Source: Candidatus Polarisedimenticolia bacterium
GTDB taxonomy: Bacteria; Acidobacteriota; Polarisedimenticolia; Gp22-AA2
DNA: 64,000 nt
Direction: 5' to 3'
Assembly: GCA_036001465.1 (NCBI GenBank)
Contig: DASYUH010000055.1
Location: 1 to 64,000 of the forward strand
The position numbers were made by a program, and so were the translations under genes. The notes below the pieces were generated by a model. That model saw nothing but the letters and a program-made list of their open reading frames with translations, ran no database searches and was not told the DNA's origin. How positions within the stretch are numbered: position 1 is the stretch's first letter; each line of letters starts with the position of its first letter. Below are positions 43,274 through 49,694 of this stretch, in pieces.

Positions 43274-44473
43274 ATGAATCGCTCTGCAGCCTCCCTCCCC
43301 TGGCTCAACCGAACCGTGATCGGCATCGGGCTGGCGAGCCTGTTCAGCGACTGGTCGCACGAGACCGCCACCACGCTCCTGCCAGCATTCCTTGCCACGA
43401 TGGGAGGCGCGGCGGCGTGGCTTGGCCTCATTGAGGGGGTGTCGGATGGCCTGTCGAGCTTCGCCAAACTGACCTCCGGCTACTTCACAGATCGCTTGCC
43501 CCGTCGCAAACCCGTCGCGGTCGTGGGATACCTCGTAACGGCGATCGGTACGGCCTCCTTCGGATTGGCGACTGCGTCTTGGCACGTCCTCCTGGCGCGC
43601 GCCAGCGCGTGGCTGGGTCGCGGCGTTCGAACGCCGGTGCGGAAGGCGCTCCTGGCCGGGGCCGTGACTGCCGAGACTTACGGCCGTGCCTTCGGTTTCG
43701 AGCGCATGATGGACACGATTGGTGCAATCATCGGCCCCGCGACTGCGGTTGCCCTCCTGGCCGCGATGCATGGAAATTATCCCAGGCTCTTCGCGCTGAC
43801 CCTTGTGCCCGGCCTCGTGGCGGCGGCGCTGATCGCTCTGGTCGTGCAGGAGAGGGATCGCCGGCCGGTGCCGCATCTGTCGCCGACCGGAAGCTGGCGC
43901 GCGCTCCCGGCCGACTTCAAGCGGTTTCTCGTCGCGGTGGCCGTGTTCGGGTGCGGAGACTTCGCCCACACTCTCCTGATCCTCTTCGCCGCCCAGCGTC
44001 TCTCGCCGTCCCTCGGTTCGGCCAGGGCGGCGGCCATCGCCACGAGCCTCTATCTGCTGCACAACACCCTGTACGCCGGGTTCGCGTTCGTGGGGGGCTG
44101 GCTGGCGGATCGCTGTCCTAAACGGCCGCTGCTCGCCGCCGGGTACGCTCTCGCGGCCCTCATGTCCACCGTCCTGCTGGCGCTGCCGGCGAGCGTCGGC
44201 TCCTTGTTTCTCGTGTTTTCCCTGGGGGGGATCTACGTCGCGCTGGAAGAGACGCTGGAGGATTCGATCTGCGCTGAGCTGGTCTCGCCCGACCAGCATG
44301 GGATGGCGTTCGGATGTTTGGCGACCGTCAATGGCATCGGGGACCTGGCATCGAGCGTAGTCGTCGGGGCCCTATGGACCGCCTTCGGCACCGGACCGGC
44401 CTTCGTCTACAGTGCAGTACTCTCCCTGCTCGGCGCAGGACTGATGCTGCTTAAGCGCCTTCGGTGGCGCTGA
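43274..44473 (+). CDS. Major facilitator superfamily transporter
   Basis: A 399-residue, 12-helix transporter from the ATG at 43274. FSDWSHETATTLLPAFL in helix 1 and SGYFTDRLPRRKP (motif A form) after helix 2 match a group annotated as YfkF/nitrate-like MFS exporters. The second half repeats the motif as GGWLADRCPKRPLL. RTPVRKALLAGAVTAETYGRAFGFERMMDTIGAIIGP is highly conserved in this group. It is convergent with the HMA selenoprotein gene, 35 bases between stops, so it is probably not part of that operon. Confidence 0.9.
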   Translation: MNRSAASLPWLNRTVIGIGLASLFSDWSHETATTLLPAFLATMGGAAAWLGLIEGVSDGLSSFAKLTSGYFTDRLPRRKPVAVVGYLVTAIGTASFGLATASWHVLLARASAWLGRGVRTPVRKALLAGAVTAETYGRAFGFERMMDTIGAIIGPATAVALLAAMHGNYPRLFALTLVPGLVAAALIALVVQERDRRPVPHLSPTGSWRALPADFKRFLVAVAVFGCGDFAHTLLILFAAQRLSPSLGSARAAAIATSLYLLHNTLYAGFAFVGGWLADRCPKRPLLAAGYALAALMSTVLLALPASVGSLFLVFSLGGIYVALEETLEDSICAELVSPDQHGMAFGCLATVNGIGDLASSVVVGALWTAFGTGPAFVYSAVLSLLGAGLMLLKRLRWR

Positions 44474-44507: not shown

Positions 44508-45038
44508 TTATTTGGTTGCCGCTCCGGTCGGAGTCTCAATCTTTTCGACCAGCAGGTCTGTCTCCGGTTCAGACAACCAACGTCCTTGGATCGCGATGGC
44601 GTGAGACGTGCTTTCGGACAAAGCTCTTTTTAGAGCGTCCCCAGTTGAACCGGGAGACAGGCGTAGCTCCTTCGCATTCTTCATCTGGTCCAGCACGAGG
44701 ACAAAACGGTCATGTCGCAGATCGAGCCTGCCGGTCACGGTGAGTCGAATCTCCTCAGGGACCGGCGTGAACCCCGAATCACGGATCGCGTCCAACATCT
44801 TCTGCGGCTCGACCCAGGCACCTGGCTTCAAAATGATCTCCAGATGGGGAGGGTCAAGAAACAGCTTCGCGTTTTCAACGCCAGCCTGGCGTTTGAGCCC
44901 CTTGACGAGGCTATACCCTCACGTCGCTCACGTTGCGCCTTTGACGCCGAGACGCACTCCCTTGACGTCGGCGGCGGCCGGCGCGAAAAAGAGCACGGCG
45001 AAAGTCACTGCCGCAAGTACCCTTCGAAAGTCCGGCAT
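44508..45038 (-). CDS. Exported heavy-metal-associated (HMA) selenoprotein with UxxU metal site (Sec37, Sec40)
   Basis: A predicted 176-residue protein from the ATG at 45038 (AGGAGG upstream) to the stop at 44508, read through two UGA codons at 44928-44930 and 44919-44921. A signal peptide (1-23, FFAPAAAD) is followed by an HMA ferredoxin-like fold: VKGVRLGVKGAT-U-A-T-U-GYSLVKGLKRQAGVENAKLF...EIILKPG...KMLDAIRDSGFTP. In MerP, Atx1 and CopZ this motif is GMTCxxC, so both UGAs sit exactly on the two metal-ligand Cys positions. A small beta-rich domain follows (about 95-168, IRLTVTGRLDLRHDRFVLVLDQ). A hairpin lies just after the second UGA. A mutated pseudogene is unlikely: only these two codons are hit and all else is intact. 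It is last in a four-gene exported operon. Confidence 0.85.
44896..44912 (-). promoter_or_regulatory. SECIS-like hairpin after the double UGA
   Basis: Seven bases after the second UGA the mRNA forms AGCCUC-GUCAA-GGGGCU, six pairs (one U-G) with a 5-base apical loop starting in GU. The loop is 13 bases after the second UGA and 22 after the first, so one element could serve both codons. Drawn by hand. Confidence 0.6.
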
Positions 45039-45063: not shown

Positions 45064-46002
45064 TCAGAAAAACATCTCCCATCCGGCACGCACTTCGTAA
45101 TTGAAGTCCGTCTCCTCCTCGTCACCGCTCTTCAACAACGGCACGAACACTCCGACGCGGTACTGGGCTCGACCTTTGGTGATGATCGGAGTGACCTGCA
45201 CGCCCGCTACTTGATGAGCGTTCTCGGCCGAGATTGCCCCTTCCAGGCGATCGTCTGCCATCGCCTCGGCATGAATTCCGACTGCCAGGTTGATCCCCAG
45301 ATCCTCCGCCACGTTGGGACGCACGATCCAGCGACCGTACGCCGCATCCAGCTCGACCGCGTCGCCGCGACGGAAGCCATCGCCGAACTCATGCGTATAA
45401 AAGACGCTGGCCCAGGCCGAATCGACAAGCCGCTCGCGGTCGACTGCATATCCCATCTCGAGGCCGTGGCGGCCGCTGCCGGGTTGATCCCCGGGGGGCA
45501 GCCGAATGCCCGTGGAATCGCGTCGGTGGCTGTCGCCGGTCGGGAGCTTCCAGCCGATGATCAGTGCCTGAGCCCTTTGAAACCCCGTGTCCTGGCGCAG
45601 ATGGAAGCGGTACTTCACGGAAAGCAATGCGTCGCCGACGCCGGACACCCGTGTCCGTTGAGTGATACCGCCGACCTCCTCCTCAAGATTCGTCTGTATG
45701 GCGGGTAGCGAAAGACGCACGTTCACGAAGCGGTTGATACCGTATTGCAGGCCGTATTCGGATTCGAGCTCGCGCGAACGCACGCCGTCCGACCCGGGAG
45801 GGCCGCCGTGGCGCGTGAGCCCTATCCGGATCTCGGGATGGAACACGCGCGGCCCGAAGATGGCAGGCGTCTCACCCCACAGCGGCTCGTGGGCGAAGGT
45901 CACCGCCGCGGAGCCGAGGAGGAGCCCTACGATCGCCGCGACATGGAGACAGCGCTCTGAGGCGGACAAGGATCCGGGGCTCGACCTCGTGTGCTTCGTC
46001 AC
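45064..46002 (-). CDS. Outer-membrane beta-barrel protein of the metal-handling operon
   Basis: A 312-residue exported protein. The GTG at 46002 overlaps the stop of the TlpA gene. The signal peptide ends near AVTFAHE. The mature part alternates beta strands (HPEIRIGLTRHGG, EYGLQYGINRFVNVRLSLPAIQT, ALLSVKYRFHLRQD, LEMGYAVDRERLVDSAWASVFYTHEF, DLGINLAVGIHAEA) and ends in NYEVRAGWEMFF with terminal Phe, typical of a BAM substrate. It resembles the phenol_MetA_deg/'transporter' type barrels often found in metal or solvent clusters. It is 25 bases from the selenoprotein start. Confidence 0.82.
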   Translation of the reverse strand: MTKHTRSSPGSLSASERCLHVAAIVGLLLGSAAVTFAHEPLWGETPAIFGPRVFHPEIRIGLTRHGGPPGSDGVRSRELESEYGLQYGINRFVNVRLSLPAIQTNLEEEVGGITQRTRVSGVGDALLSVKYRFHLRQDTGFQRAQALIIGWKLPTGDSHRRDSTGIRLPPGDQPGSGRHGLEMGYAVDRERLVDSAWASVFYTHEFGDGFRRGDAVELDAAYGRWIVRPNVAEDLGINLAVGIHAEAMADDRLEGAISAENAHQVAGVQVTPIITKGRAQYRVGVFVPLLKSGDEEETDFNYEVRAGWEMFF

Positions 46003-46583
46003 GGTTTACGCGCCTGTGGGTGAAGCGGCTTTCCGCCGGCGTCCAGCGCCTCCCTGACCGCCCGCTCGATGTCCTTCTCCTCGCCCTTGAGGTAGCCGGT
46101 GTTCACGAAGCGCACGATGCCGTTCGCGTCAATGAGCACGGACGTCGGATGAGCGACGATTCCGTAGAGGTCGCCGATCCGCACCTCGGGGTCGAGCAGG
46201 ATAGGGTAGGTGACGCGAATTTCCTGGATGAAGCGTGCCACTTGGTCGCGCTCCGGGTTCATCTGGGTGATCCCTATTAGCCGCAACCCACGATGTTCGT
46301 AGCGTCGGTGGAGCTTTTCGAGCTCGGGCATCTCAATGCGGCAGGGCGGGCAATTTACAGCCCAGAAATTGAGGAGGATGACATGACCGCGAAGCGCCTC
46401 CAACCCAAGCGTGCCTCCATCGATCCGGGCGCCGGAAAAAGGCGGCGCGGTCATCCCCGGCTCCACTCCGCCGGGCGAGGAAGCGGCGAAGCCGTCTGAC
46501 CCCGTCAGCAAACCCAGGCTGAGGGTGAGAAGCGTGCATCTTGCTTGATGAAACTTGACCGATCGGACCCTCGGAATGAACAT
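45999..46583 (-). CDS. TlpA-like periplasmic thioredoxin
   Basis: A 194-residue exported thiol-disulfide oxidoreductase. ATG at 46583 follows GGGAG. The signal peptide covers about residues 12-33. The thioredoxin fold is recognisable from APPFSGARIDGGTLGLEALRGHVILLNFWAVNCPPCRIEMPEL, with redox-active CPPC at about 79-82, and the cis-Pro in VAHPTSVLID. It would reduce disulfides (or a selenenylsulfide) outside the cytoplasm. In this operon the likely clients are the Cys-rich protein and the UxxU HMA protein; this is inference from co-transcription. The C-terminal 4 bases overlap the barrel gene. Confidence 0.92.
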   Translation of the reverse strand: MFIPRVRSVKFHQARCTLLTLSLGLLTGSDGFAASSPGGVEPGMTAPPFSGARIDGGTLGLEALRGHVILLNFWAVNCPPCRIEMPELEKLHRRYEHRGLRLIGITQMNPERDQVARFIQEIRVTYPILLDPEVRIGDLYGIVAHPTSVLIDANGIVRFVNTGYLKGEEKDIERAVREALDAGGKPLHPQARKP

Positions 46584-46666: not shown

Positions 46667-47062
46667 TTAGGAGACGGGTGGAGCGCGACTGGCACGGTAG
46701 GTCGGAGGTGGATCCGGCCGCAAATCGTCCGCTGATGCCGGCAGCTGCCCTTCAGAGGGTTGTTCGCCCGCGGACGACATCGAGGCCGGCAGGATCGCCA
46801 TCTCCGGTCCATCAAGAAGCGGCGCGAGGTTCCAGACGTACGAGAAGGGCTGGCCATTGATGACCGGCTGGCAGCAATCCCGCTTCCCAGCATCCAGCTT
46901 AAGCGTCTGTACCCCAGCGGAATCCATCCCGACCGAACAACAGGGGCTCGTCGCGGCGCAGCAAAAGCTAGACACGGGGAGACCAGTTAGGAGGACGGCG
47001 ATCGCGACCAGACAAGCCGCCACATGCCTGGTCCAGGATCCCCAACCGAGTCTCGATACCAT
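46667..47062 (-). CDS. Cys-rich exported protein, first gene of the metal-handling operon
   Basis: A 131-residue protein from the ATG at 47062. A signal segment (about 13-30, ACLVAIAVLLTGLPVSS) precedes three vicinal Cys pairs: FCCAATSPCCSVGM and, 20 residues on, RDCCQPV. The rest is Pro/Ser-rich without clear domains. Vicinal Cys pairs suggest soft-metal binding (Cu+, Hg2+, Cd2+ or similar), but no named family is recognised. A promoter whose -10 lies 6 bases before the ATG suggests a leaderless transcript. Confidence 0.75.
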   Translation of the reverse strand: MVSRLGWGSWTRHVAACLVAIAVLLTGLPVSSFCCAATSPCCSVGMDSAGVQTLKLDAGKRDCCQPVINGQPFSYVWNLAPLLDGPEMAILPASMSSAGEQPSEGQLPASADDLRPDPPPTYRASRAPPVS

Positions 47063-47097: not shown

Positions 47098-47465
47098 CTA
47101 TCAGCCGTGGAGGGGTCAAATGAACCGAATCATGGACACGATCCGGGTTCATGAGCGCCTCAACTTCCAGCCTGTCGATCTGGAGGCCGCCACACGCGAC
47201 GTGCGAGGGCTCAGACCCCAAACCAATCGGGATTATTCCTCCCAGGAAATCAGTAGATCACCCGACAGACAAATGGAGGTGTTCACCGCACGTTCCCCGT
47301 GCAAGCTCGCGAGCTAATCGATCAAGGAGGAAGGGGAGAAGACGTCCACCCTGTCCTGATGGGGCGCCGCCGGATTTCGAAAGGCGCTCTGCCGTCGACC
47401 GCCTTATCAGAGGACAGCTATGTCCCGAAGTCCTTGTACCTGTTCAGGGCGCCTGGGAGGTCGCC
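47098..47465. other. Intergenic stretch without recognised gene
   Basis: About 370 bases between the divergent metal operon and the di-haem protein gene. Frames are open on both strands for up to 97 codons, but none has a ribosome-binding site, signal peptide or family-like sequence. It presumably holds the promoter of the plus-strand cytochrome gene, which I could not locate. Confidence 0.5.
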
Positions 47466-49694
47466 ATGCCGCAGAACGCGTCGGTACGCTGGTCCTTCTG
47501 GAGGCTCAGGATCCCTCCACTCGCGCTCGCCACCGTCATCTTTGTCTTTGCGGTGGTGGGCCTGCCTCCGGCGATATTCCATACGACCTCCTCTCTCCCG
47601 CCCGGCGCCGCGACGCCTGCTTCTGACGAGAAGCCGATCGGTCCGCTGCGGGCGCTCGTCGCCAGCCATTCGACTCTCGCGTCCGTCGTCTATCCACAGT
47701 GGCTGCGCGGCTACCTCGAGAATGGGGGTGACCGCAACGTCGTCGTGGGCCTCGGTTCGAGACTCGGGCTCTCCACGGAGCCAAGCGAGGCCCGGGGAAG
47801 CGTCGCCCTCGACCTCGTCGGAGGATCTCTGACGGCCCGCGTCGAGGGTCTCGGCGATCAGTCGGCGGATCTCTGGTTGATCGATGACTCTGATGCGCCC
47901 GGGCTGACATCGCTTCCGGAGCCCGGCGACCACATGGTCCGCGTCGGACGGCTCGAGCAAACGGACGAGGGCGCCCGCGTTTCCGCCCATCTCGGCGCGG
48001 GGTTCTTCGGGAGCTTCGAGCTGGACACGGTGGTCGTCTCCCGGGCGGGCAGCACGCCGGCCGAGAGCCGCATCCTCCTGGGCACCCGGCCCTTCTTCGA
48101 GCGGGTCTATACGAAAAGCCGCTTGGCGGCCGAGGCCAGCCGGCCCGGAGCCCTCCACGCCTCGCTCGAATCCCTGCTGGAACCACGGCCTGCCTTCGCG
48201 GATTCCACCCAGGTCCTCATCGCCCACGGCCTGGTGAGCCAGGCGGTCGGCAACGGGGCGGATCTCTTCTTCCGCGGGACCTTCAACGGCAACGGCCGCA
48301 CCTGCGGCACCTGCCATCGAGTGGAGAACAACCTGGTCGTCGAGGCGGCCTTCATCGGCACCTTGCCTTCCACCGACAAGATCTTCGTGGCCGAGTTTCC
48401 GTCGAGCCAGGGAGGTGTGCCCGGCCTCGAGCGGCCGGCGCTCATGCGCGGGTTCGGGTTGATCCTCGAGAACGTGGACGGGTTGGAGAACCCGACCGTC
48501 AAGTTCGTCATGCGCGGCGTCCCCCACACGCTCTCGGTGGGCACGTCCGTGCGGCCGCCCGCGGACGGCCGGAACGCCGTCGAACGAACGGGCTGGAGCG
48601 GCGACGGGGCTCCCGATTCAGGCGCCCTGCGTCTGTTCGCGAACGGCGCCGTCGTCCAGCATTTCACCAAGAGGCTCAACCGGGTCGTCAACGTCGACTT
48701 CCGCCTCCCGACACAGACCGAGCTGGACTCCATCGAAGCGTACCTGCGGTCCACCGGACGCACGAACGAGCTGAACCTCGCCGGCGTGAGCCTGTCGGAC
48801 CCGGGGGCGGAGCTGGGCCGCAGGATCTTCAACAACAATAACACCGACCCCACCATCGGCAGCGGCAAGTGCCTCAACTGTCATCGCAACGCCGGCGCCA
48901 ATCTCGGGAACGGGACCAATGGCAACTTCGACACCGGGGTCGAGAACGTCCCGCATCCGGCCAGGAACACCGAGAGCTTTCCGTTCGACGGCGGCTTCGG
49001 AACGGCCGCTCGTGACTGCAACGGTGACGCGATCAATGACTGCTTCGGCGACGGCACCTTCAATGCGCCTCCGCTCATCGAAGCCGCCGACACCCCGCCC
49101 TTCTTCCACAACAACGTGGCGAGGACCGTGGAGGACTCGGTGGCCTTCTACTCGAGTCCCCAGTTCCAGGCTTCGCCGTCCGGCGCCATCGTTGGCGGCA
49201 TCGCTCTCAGCGCTCAGGAGACCCAGAACGTGGCAGCGTTCCTCAGGGTCATCAACGCGGCATTCAACGTGGACATGGCGATCCAGCGCAACGATGCCGG
49301 CATCGCTCTGGAGAACAGCGCCCCTCTTGGCACCTGCTCGGGTGGCGAGCCCGTCCTCCAGAGTGACCTCTCACCCAGCGGTGATTCTCCCGGCGTGGAC
49401 TGTGCGGCAGGAGGGGATGAAACGGGGAAGCGGGAGACCATCAACAAGCTGCTCTCCCTGTCGAATGAAGAGGCGCAGGACGCAATCGACGTCCTGAACG
49501 CTCGGAGCCTGCATCCGGACGCAGTGACCCTCCTCCAGAGCGCGATCAACAAGAACAACCAGGCGATCGCCACCTTCGCATCCCAGCAGCGCAAGGACCT
49601 GATGCAGAGCGCGCGCAGTGACCTGAGCGCCGCCAGGCTGAGGTTCGGCACGGGGATCGGCCTGACGATGGGCGAGGGCAACCTGCTGTTCTAG
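47466..49694 (+). CDS. Secreted di-haem cytochrome c-like protein
   Basis: A 742-residue protein with an N-terminal membrane segment or signal (about 17-35). Two haem-binding motifs are present: CGTCH (280-284) and CLNCH (469-473). The first is followed by a long region with GLERPALMRGFGLILENVDG and MRGVPHTLSVGTSVRPP; the second by ARNTESFPFDGGFG and HNNVARTVEDSVAFYSSPQF, which recall the MauG/CcpA-type di-haem peroxidase ending, FFHNNV acting as the usual invariant phrase. The N-terminal 250 residues before the first haem have no assigned domain. Peroxidase or multicopper-like oxidase activity is inference. A perfect 13-bp hairpin follows the gene. Confidence 0.85.
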   Translation: MPQNASVRWSFWRLRIPPLALATVIFVFAVVGLPPAIFHTTSSLPPGAATPASDEKPIGPLRALVASHSTLASVVYPQWLRGYLENGGDRNVVVGLGSRLGLSTEPSEARGSVALDLVGGSLTARVEGLGDQSADLWLIDDSDAPGLTSLPEPGDHMVRVGRLEQTDEGARVSAHLGAGFFGSFELDTVVVSRAGSTPAESRILLGTRPFFERVYTKSRLAAEASRPGALHASLESLLEPRPAFADSTQVLIAHGLVSQAVGNGADLFFRGTFNGNGRTCGTCHRVENNLVVEAAFIGTLPSTDKIFVAEFPSSQGGVPGLERPALMRGFGLILENVDGLENPTVKFVMRGVPHTLSVGTSVRPPADGRNAVERTGWSGDGAPDSGALRLFANGAVVQHFTKRLNRVVNVDFRLPTQTELDSIEAYLRSTGRTNELNLAGVSLSDPGAELGRRIFNNNNTDPTIGSGKCLNCHRNAGANLGNGTNGNFDTGVENVPHPARNTESFPFDGGFGTAARDCNGDAINDCFGDGTFNAPPLIEAADTPPFFHNNVARTVEDSVAFYSSPQFQASPSGAIVGGIALSAQETQNVAAFLRVINAAFNVDMAIQRNDAGIALENSAPLGTCSGGEPVLQSDLSPSGDSPGVDCAAGGDETGKRETINKLLSLSNEEAQDAIDVLNARSLHPDAVTLLQSAINKNNQAIATFASQQRKDLMQSARSDLSAARLRFGTGIGLTMGEGNLLF

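Follow-up and report, generated by a model that had tools for sequence, protein, structure and literature searches.

A gene with two in-frame UGA codons

The DNA analyzed here (the window) is the first 64,000 nt of contig DASYUH010000055.1, from Candidatus Polarisedimenticolia bacterium. It contains a cluster of four minus-strand genes, encoding a CC-rich exported protein, a TlpA/ResA-like protein, an outer-membrane-like protein, and, last, a heavy-metal-associated (HMA) protein whose gene holds two in-frame UGA codons, each predicted to specify selenocysteine (Sec; U) in a UxxU motif. The genes and codons are listed below, with surveyed genomes denoted by G numbers and the window genome as G000.

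46667..47062, minus strand: opens the cluster; small exported protein containing CC motifs (from sequence; similar in G003 and G085)
45999..46583, minus strand: TlpA/ResA-like thiol-disulfide protein with a CPPC motif (AhpC-TSA match, 1.5e-25; synteny)
45064..46002, minus strand: outer-membrane-like protein, partner gene (adjacent in G008, 71% identity, and in G003, 67%)
44508..45038, minus strand: predicted exported UxxU HMA selenoprotein gene, whole (176 codons, stop TAA)
44928..44930, minus strand: UGA1, codon 37, predicted Sec (frame reading and 24-row alignment)
44919..44921, minus strand: UGA2, codon 40, predicted Sec (frame reading and 24-row alignment)

Reading of the window placed the coding frame on the minus strand, from 45038 to 44508; the plus-strand frame at 44508-45038 is not open. 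The 176-codon frame contains two in-frame TGA codons, spaced 9 nt apart, and its translation with TGA as U begins MPDFRRVLAAVTFAVLFFAPAAADVKGVRLGVKGATUATUGYSLVKGLKRQAGV. TGA also serves as an ordinary stop in the window, one instance being the stop codon of the gene at 43274-44473. That plus-strand gene, which encodes an MFS transporter, is convergent with the cluster; 35 bases separate its end from that of the UxxU gene. Divergent from the cluster, at 47151-49694 on the plus strand, lies a gene for a large exported protein with CxxCH heme motifs and a weak match to di-heme peroxidase (MauG).

The TlpA/ResA-like protein matched the ResA model at 7.8e-26, below the cutoff of that model, and the outer-membrane-like protein matched no Pfam or NCBIfam family. 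The TlpA/ResA-like, outer-membrane-like, and UxxU genes are found together in G008 and G003, with 55 to 71% identity. A protein similar to the CC-rich one is encoded upstream at the same place in G003 and near a family relative in G085, and in six genomes (G019, G131, G277, G298, G319, and G376), genes related to the outer-membrane one are found close to family members.

Conservation of the UGA pair and the selenocysteine machinery

The original prediction had placed both UGA codons at the metal-ligand Cys sites of an HMA domain, and comparison with relatives bore this out. The best homologs among 100 relatives, in G008 (56% identity) and G003 (53% identity; same genus as the window genome), each have exactly two in-frame TGA codons, at the same codons. 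A profile built from nine members and searched against 396 genomes of the phylum showed that exported HMA proteins carrying a C-terminal extension form a broad family. More distant UxxU homologs were found in G014, G017, G064, G108, G127, G131, G159, G277, G298, and G319, so that the same codons are TGA in 12 other surveyed genomes, 13 with the window genome. Among the loci read, UxxC members are present in G376, G102 (two copies), G228, and G138, and CxxC members occur as well. As had been anticipated for homologs, both UGA columns hold Cys or Sec in every one of the 24 aligned family members.

In a maximum-likelihood tree of 33 members, there were seven changes among the UxxU, UxxC, and CxxC states, the direction of which (gain or loss) is not told by the tree; the same tree groups the window protein with those of G003 and G008 (support, 100/100). 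When genome contigs were scanned with a three-row alignment, the sole recovery was the G003 contig QHXX01000076.1 (Acidobacteria gp22); a scan of genome contigs with the single window protein gave no matches, and neither did a PHROGs search.

Several family loci stand out from the others. The window genome also encodes a CxxC relative with the same two-domain architecture (contig C15, 18141-18656), so Sec and Cys versions coexist in one genome. G376 carries UxxC and CxxC members in tandem (contig C87, 7208-8639), one on each side of a small membrane gene that is weakly MerT-like. In a long metal region of contig C16, G127 has another HMA gene, which contains one UGA (GMTUDSC).

At face value, two in-frame stops could mark a decayed gene or a sequencing error. 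The original prediction had itself raised the prospect of TGC or TGT in place of TGA; the identical TGA pair recurs in other genomes, which were assembled independently, and this argues against read error. Furthermore, differences in the HMA part after UGA2 numbered 12/6/22 and 12/6/23 at codon positions 1/2/3, and this third-position excess indicates that the part beyond the stops is translated and under selection. With a complete sel set and covarying RNA confined to UxxU genes (both described below) also against it, decay or error is highly improbable, and the pseudogene reading was rejected on conservation and covariation.

The window genome encodes tRNA-Sec with a UCA anticodon, selA, selB, and selD; thus, all four genes of the suggested sel check (selA, selB, selC, and selD) were found. 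Its selD (contig C13, 57411-58343) has one in-frame TGA, within an SGGUAAK motif, and is itself a selenoprotein gene, with a SECIS-type hairpin (GGU loop) 17 nt from the UGA. We also considered whether UGA might be decoded as some residue other than Sec, through near-cognate read-through or in a reassigned code, and found nothing in favor of this. The ordinary TGA stops elsewhere in the window, the tRNA-Sec with its UCA anticodon, and the alternation of both positions with Cys alone in relatives make this extremely unlikely, and such decoding was rejected on conservation and covariation. Selenocysteine decoding of codons 37 and 40 is strongly supported by conservation, the sel genes, and covarying RNA.

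Tandem hairpins downstream of UGA2

The original prediction had guessed that a SECIS would lie near 44880-44935, and a SECIS-like element composed of two hairpins was indeed located, at 44877-44912.

44896..44912, minus strand: hairpin 1 (covarying stem of 6 bp; loop GUCAA, variable in the family and 21 nt after UGA1)
44877..44893, minus strand: hairpin 2, probable SECIS (6 to 7 bp, loop AGGCU, conserved GG)

The UxxU genes align without gaps over 57 nt from UGA1, with hairpin 1 in columns 19 to 35 and hairpin 2 in columns 38 to 54. Pairing was retained in 96.2% of cells, compared to a mean of 86.6% in shuffled alignments (reached in 0 of 500 shuffles); the alignment rows are related, and this and the following shuffle counts are not probabilities. 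Cells with double changes numbered 11, compared to 3.6 after shuffling (0/500); most of the 11 separate the window trio from the remaining rows and hence represent few events. The numbers of pairs changed on both sides (145/500) and of further pair types (61/500) were not beyond those of shuffles. Pairing fell to 30 to 47% when the partner column was offset by 1 to 3 positions. RNAalifold arrived at both stems as well and, in 8 of 11 rows, closed a GGN triloop of hairpin 2 with an additional A-U/U-A pair; this is the N1-G-G-N-N2 pattern described in the published model of the bacterial SECIS (PMC13188914).

In UxxC and CxxC relatives, only 41 of 90 and 35 of 90 cells, respectively, were paired in the same columns, and a GG loop was seen in 1 of 15 such rows versus all 12 UxxU rows. 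The Arg codon CGC and the Gly codon GGC are found in 13/13 UxxU genes; GGC occurs in 7/15 of the others. When codons for the window amino acids were drawn according to local codon usage, the two stems formed together in 0.03% of draws. A covariance model built from eleven UxxU rows recovered those rows and two genes that had not been used, from G298 (near-identical to a used row) and G131 (E value, 7e-8). The G131 gene keeps all pairs of hairpin 2 and, with different bases and a one-base shift, still forms six pairs in hairpin 1. The three weakest matches to the model were in G065, G312, and G330; matches in G267 and G385 had no HMA frame and were judged to be due to chance. The UxxC genes of G102, G228, and G138 have a single hairpin (loop CGUGC, 17 nt). 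A lone hairpin at this distance, unlike the tandem UxxU layout, is the arrangement of selD and of three among the four UxxC-bearing genomes that were read. The two-hairpin layout therefore accompanies the double UGA and is absent from UxxC and CxxC relatives, and the conserved hairpin pair probably tells the ribosome to insert both Sec residues.

How the pair might serve two codons can be considered against the bacterial SECIS model, which specifies a hairpin 16 to 37 nt after the UGA, a G in the first two loop positions, and a minimum free energy (MFE) of -7.5 or lower (PMC13188914). Hairpin 2 conforms for UGA2 (31 nt; MFE, -7.5 to -7.9), and in the window, hairpin 1 conforms for UGA1 (21 nt; MFE, -8.5). 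It is possible, at somewhat less than even confidence, that each UGA has a SECIS of its own, hairpin 1 for UGA1 and hairpin 2 for UGA2, which would leave the protein and its function unchanged. Both spacings fall within the published range, and both stems are conserved. However, the loop of hairpin 1 is variable, while the GG of the hairpin 2 loop is invariant, and a model-conforming hairpin 1 for UGA1 was not found in 5 of the 12 UxxU genes, which favors a spacer over a second SECIS. Hairpin 1 is thus most likely a spacer helix.

We tentatively propose, with confidence again short of even, that a composite signal, a spacer hairpin followed by a GG-loop SECIS, programs two Sec insertions 9 nt apart. 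The distance from UGA1 to the loop of hairpin 2 is 40 nt, outside the published range of 16 to 37 nt, and counts against a reading with a single SECIS. With UGA1 in the A site, however, hairpin 1 would remain folded and bring the SECIS to an effective distance of ~23 nt; with UGA2 in the A site, hairpin 1 would be melted by the ribosome and the SECIS would lie at 31 nt. Hairpin 2 resembles the canonical bacterial SECIS in its stem of 6 to 8 bp, its GG loop, and its distance from UGA2, but unlike the canonical element, it is preceded by a second conserved hairpin and lies 40 nt from UGA1 (PMC13188914). The tandem-hairpin signal is, in our opinion, the most interesting part of this system, and it offers a compact setting, supplied by nature, for testing how the ribosome would read two closely spaced UGA codons as Sec. 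We know of no described bacterial SECIS with a layout of spacer hairpin plus GG loop.

Protein architecture, metal context, and relation to known families

The predicted protein can be divided into three parts.

44970..45038, minus strand: signal-peptide-like N terminus, residues 1 to 23 (by eye; family members start alike)
44760..44966, minus strand: HMA domain, residues about 25 to 93 (AlphaFold2 model, structure comparison, and profile search of solved sequences)
44529..44759, minus strand: C-terminal domain, residues about 94 to 170 (AlphaFold2 secondary structure, pLDDT 83 to 93; family-conserved)

An AlphaFold2 model made from the family alignment had a mean pLDDT of 86.7 (about 90 to 95 in the HMA domain) and showed the beta-alpha-beta-beta-alpha-beta order of the HMA fold followed by beta-beta-beta-alpha-beta-beta, a strand order that suggests an OB-like C-terminal domain. 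In VIA-align, the model matched 3cjk_B, an HMA domain of a copper ATPase (Z score, 8.9; rmsd, 1.9; 75 aligned positions). Further copper and mercury HMA domains scored nearly as high; every fold listed in the search was an HMA fold, and a profile search of solved sequences returned the same copper/mercury HMA families. The Pfam HMA model (PF00403) matched the window protein at 15.6 bits (E value, 0.021), below its gathering score of 24.8, and matched 22 of the 24 family members at an E value of 0.01 or better. The HMA fold proposed from sequence is thereby upheld by model and structure comparison, even with a Pfam score below the cutoff. The description of a stand-alone exported HMA protein held in part: the signal-peptide-like start, judged by eye, suggests that the protein would be exported, but the second domain means that it does not stand alone.

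The gene neighborhoods of relatives include several metal-handling genes. Near the UxxU gene of G319 is a MerT gene (PF02411, 1.1e-18). A CopZ zinc-domain protein and a metal-sensitive repressor are encoded there too, as is a pyridine-nucleotide reductase with a MerA score of 290 bits, below the cutoff. MerR-type regulators are encoded near family genes in G127 and G376. The metal region of G127 contig C16 contains genes for two MerR regulators, small membrane proteins, and CopZ-like and MerA-like products. No MerT was found in the window genome or in G008. The mer- and CopZ-type neighbors in relatives support soft-metal handling by context and mercury less so, and the absence of MerT from the window genome means that mercury is not supported locally. 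A role in soft-metal capture is likely, and mercury is perhaps the metal.

A different function, as a thiol/selenol oxidoreductase or redox partner of the TlpA/ResA-like protein with UxxU as a redox pair, would accord with the adjacent TlpA/ResA-like gene, conserved in three genomes, and with the fact that known selenoproteins are mostly redox proteins (PMC9312934). However, the protein has an HMA fold with its ligand positions replaced, not a thioredoxin fold, and its relatives adjoin MerT, MerR, CopZ, and metal-repressor genes; we consider a redox function unlikely. The dual-Sec metal-binding protein originally proposed is supported by the sel genes, the Cys/Sec columns, and the SECIS-like element, with the metal itself a matter of inference, and we think it quite likely that the gene product is a two-domain selenoprotein that is exported and binds soft metals, with a UxxU site decoded via the tandem hairpins. 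In the mechanism that we infer, from Sec insertion and export to metal binding, the metal involved, and the partner roles, SelA, SelB, tRNA-Sec, and SelD would place Sec at UGA codons 37 and 40 to form the UxxU metal site, with hairpin 2 carrying the SECIS-type GG loop and hairpin 1 drawing hairpin 2 close enough to serve both codons. Once in the periplasm, the selenolate pair would hold a thiophilic metal with higher affinity than CxxC would, the TlpA/ResA-like partner may keep the UxxU site reduced, and the outer-membrane partner may handle passage of the metal.

Both sulfur ligands of a textbook metal site thus seem to be replaced by selenium in a secreted protein, and the UxxU, UxxC, and CxxC versions within one family allow direct comparison. 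Such a protein would give Acidobacteria, common soil bacteria, selenium-dependent handling of soft metals.

The literature searched, which included few subscription journals, contained no account of the exported two-domain family or its tandem hairpins. The UxxU HMA motif itself is already cataloged as NF041115 (UxxU_metal_bind), a metal-binding (seleno)protein and "putative mercuric reductase" with two Sec residues that a 2026 review traces to an Olavius algarvensis symbiont (PMC13188914). Like the window protein, NF041115 has an HMA-type domain with UxxU and two Sec residues, but its model covers one domain of 74 positions, to which the window protein adds a signal peptide and the C-terminal domain. 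The window protein scored 32.3 bits against a cutoff of 95, which was passed by no genome of the phylum sample. NF045683, the MerT/CopZ fusion-like heavy metal transport selenoprotein, is likewise an HMA-related selenoprotein of metal transport; its MerT-type membrane part is absent from the window protein, and some family members match it, weakly. MerP (TIGR02052) and the CopZ/Atx1 chaperones, which are small or (MerP) exported and have a CxxC soft-metal site, share the HMA fold, but the window protein has Sec in place of both Cys residues as well as the extra C-terminal domain, and it scored 26.8 bits against MerP (cutoff, 92.55). As judged from these scores, the exported two-domain family, far below the NF041115 cutoff, is a variant of a known UxxU HMA motif.
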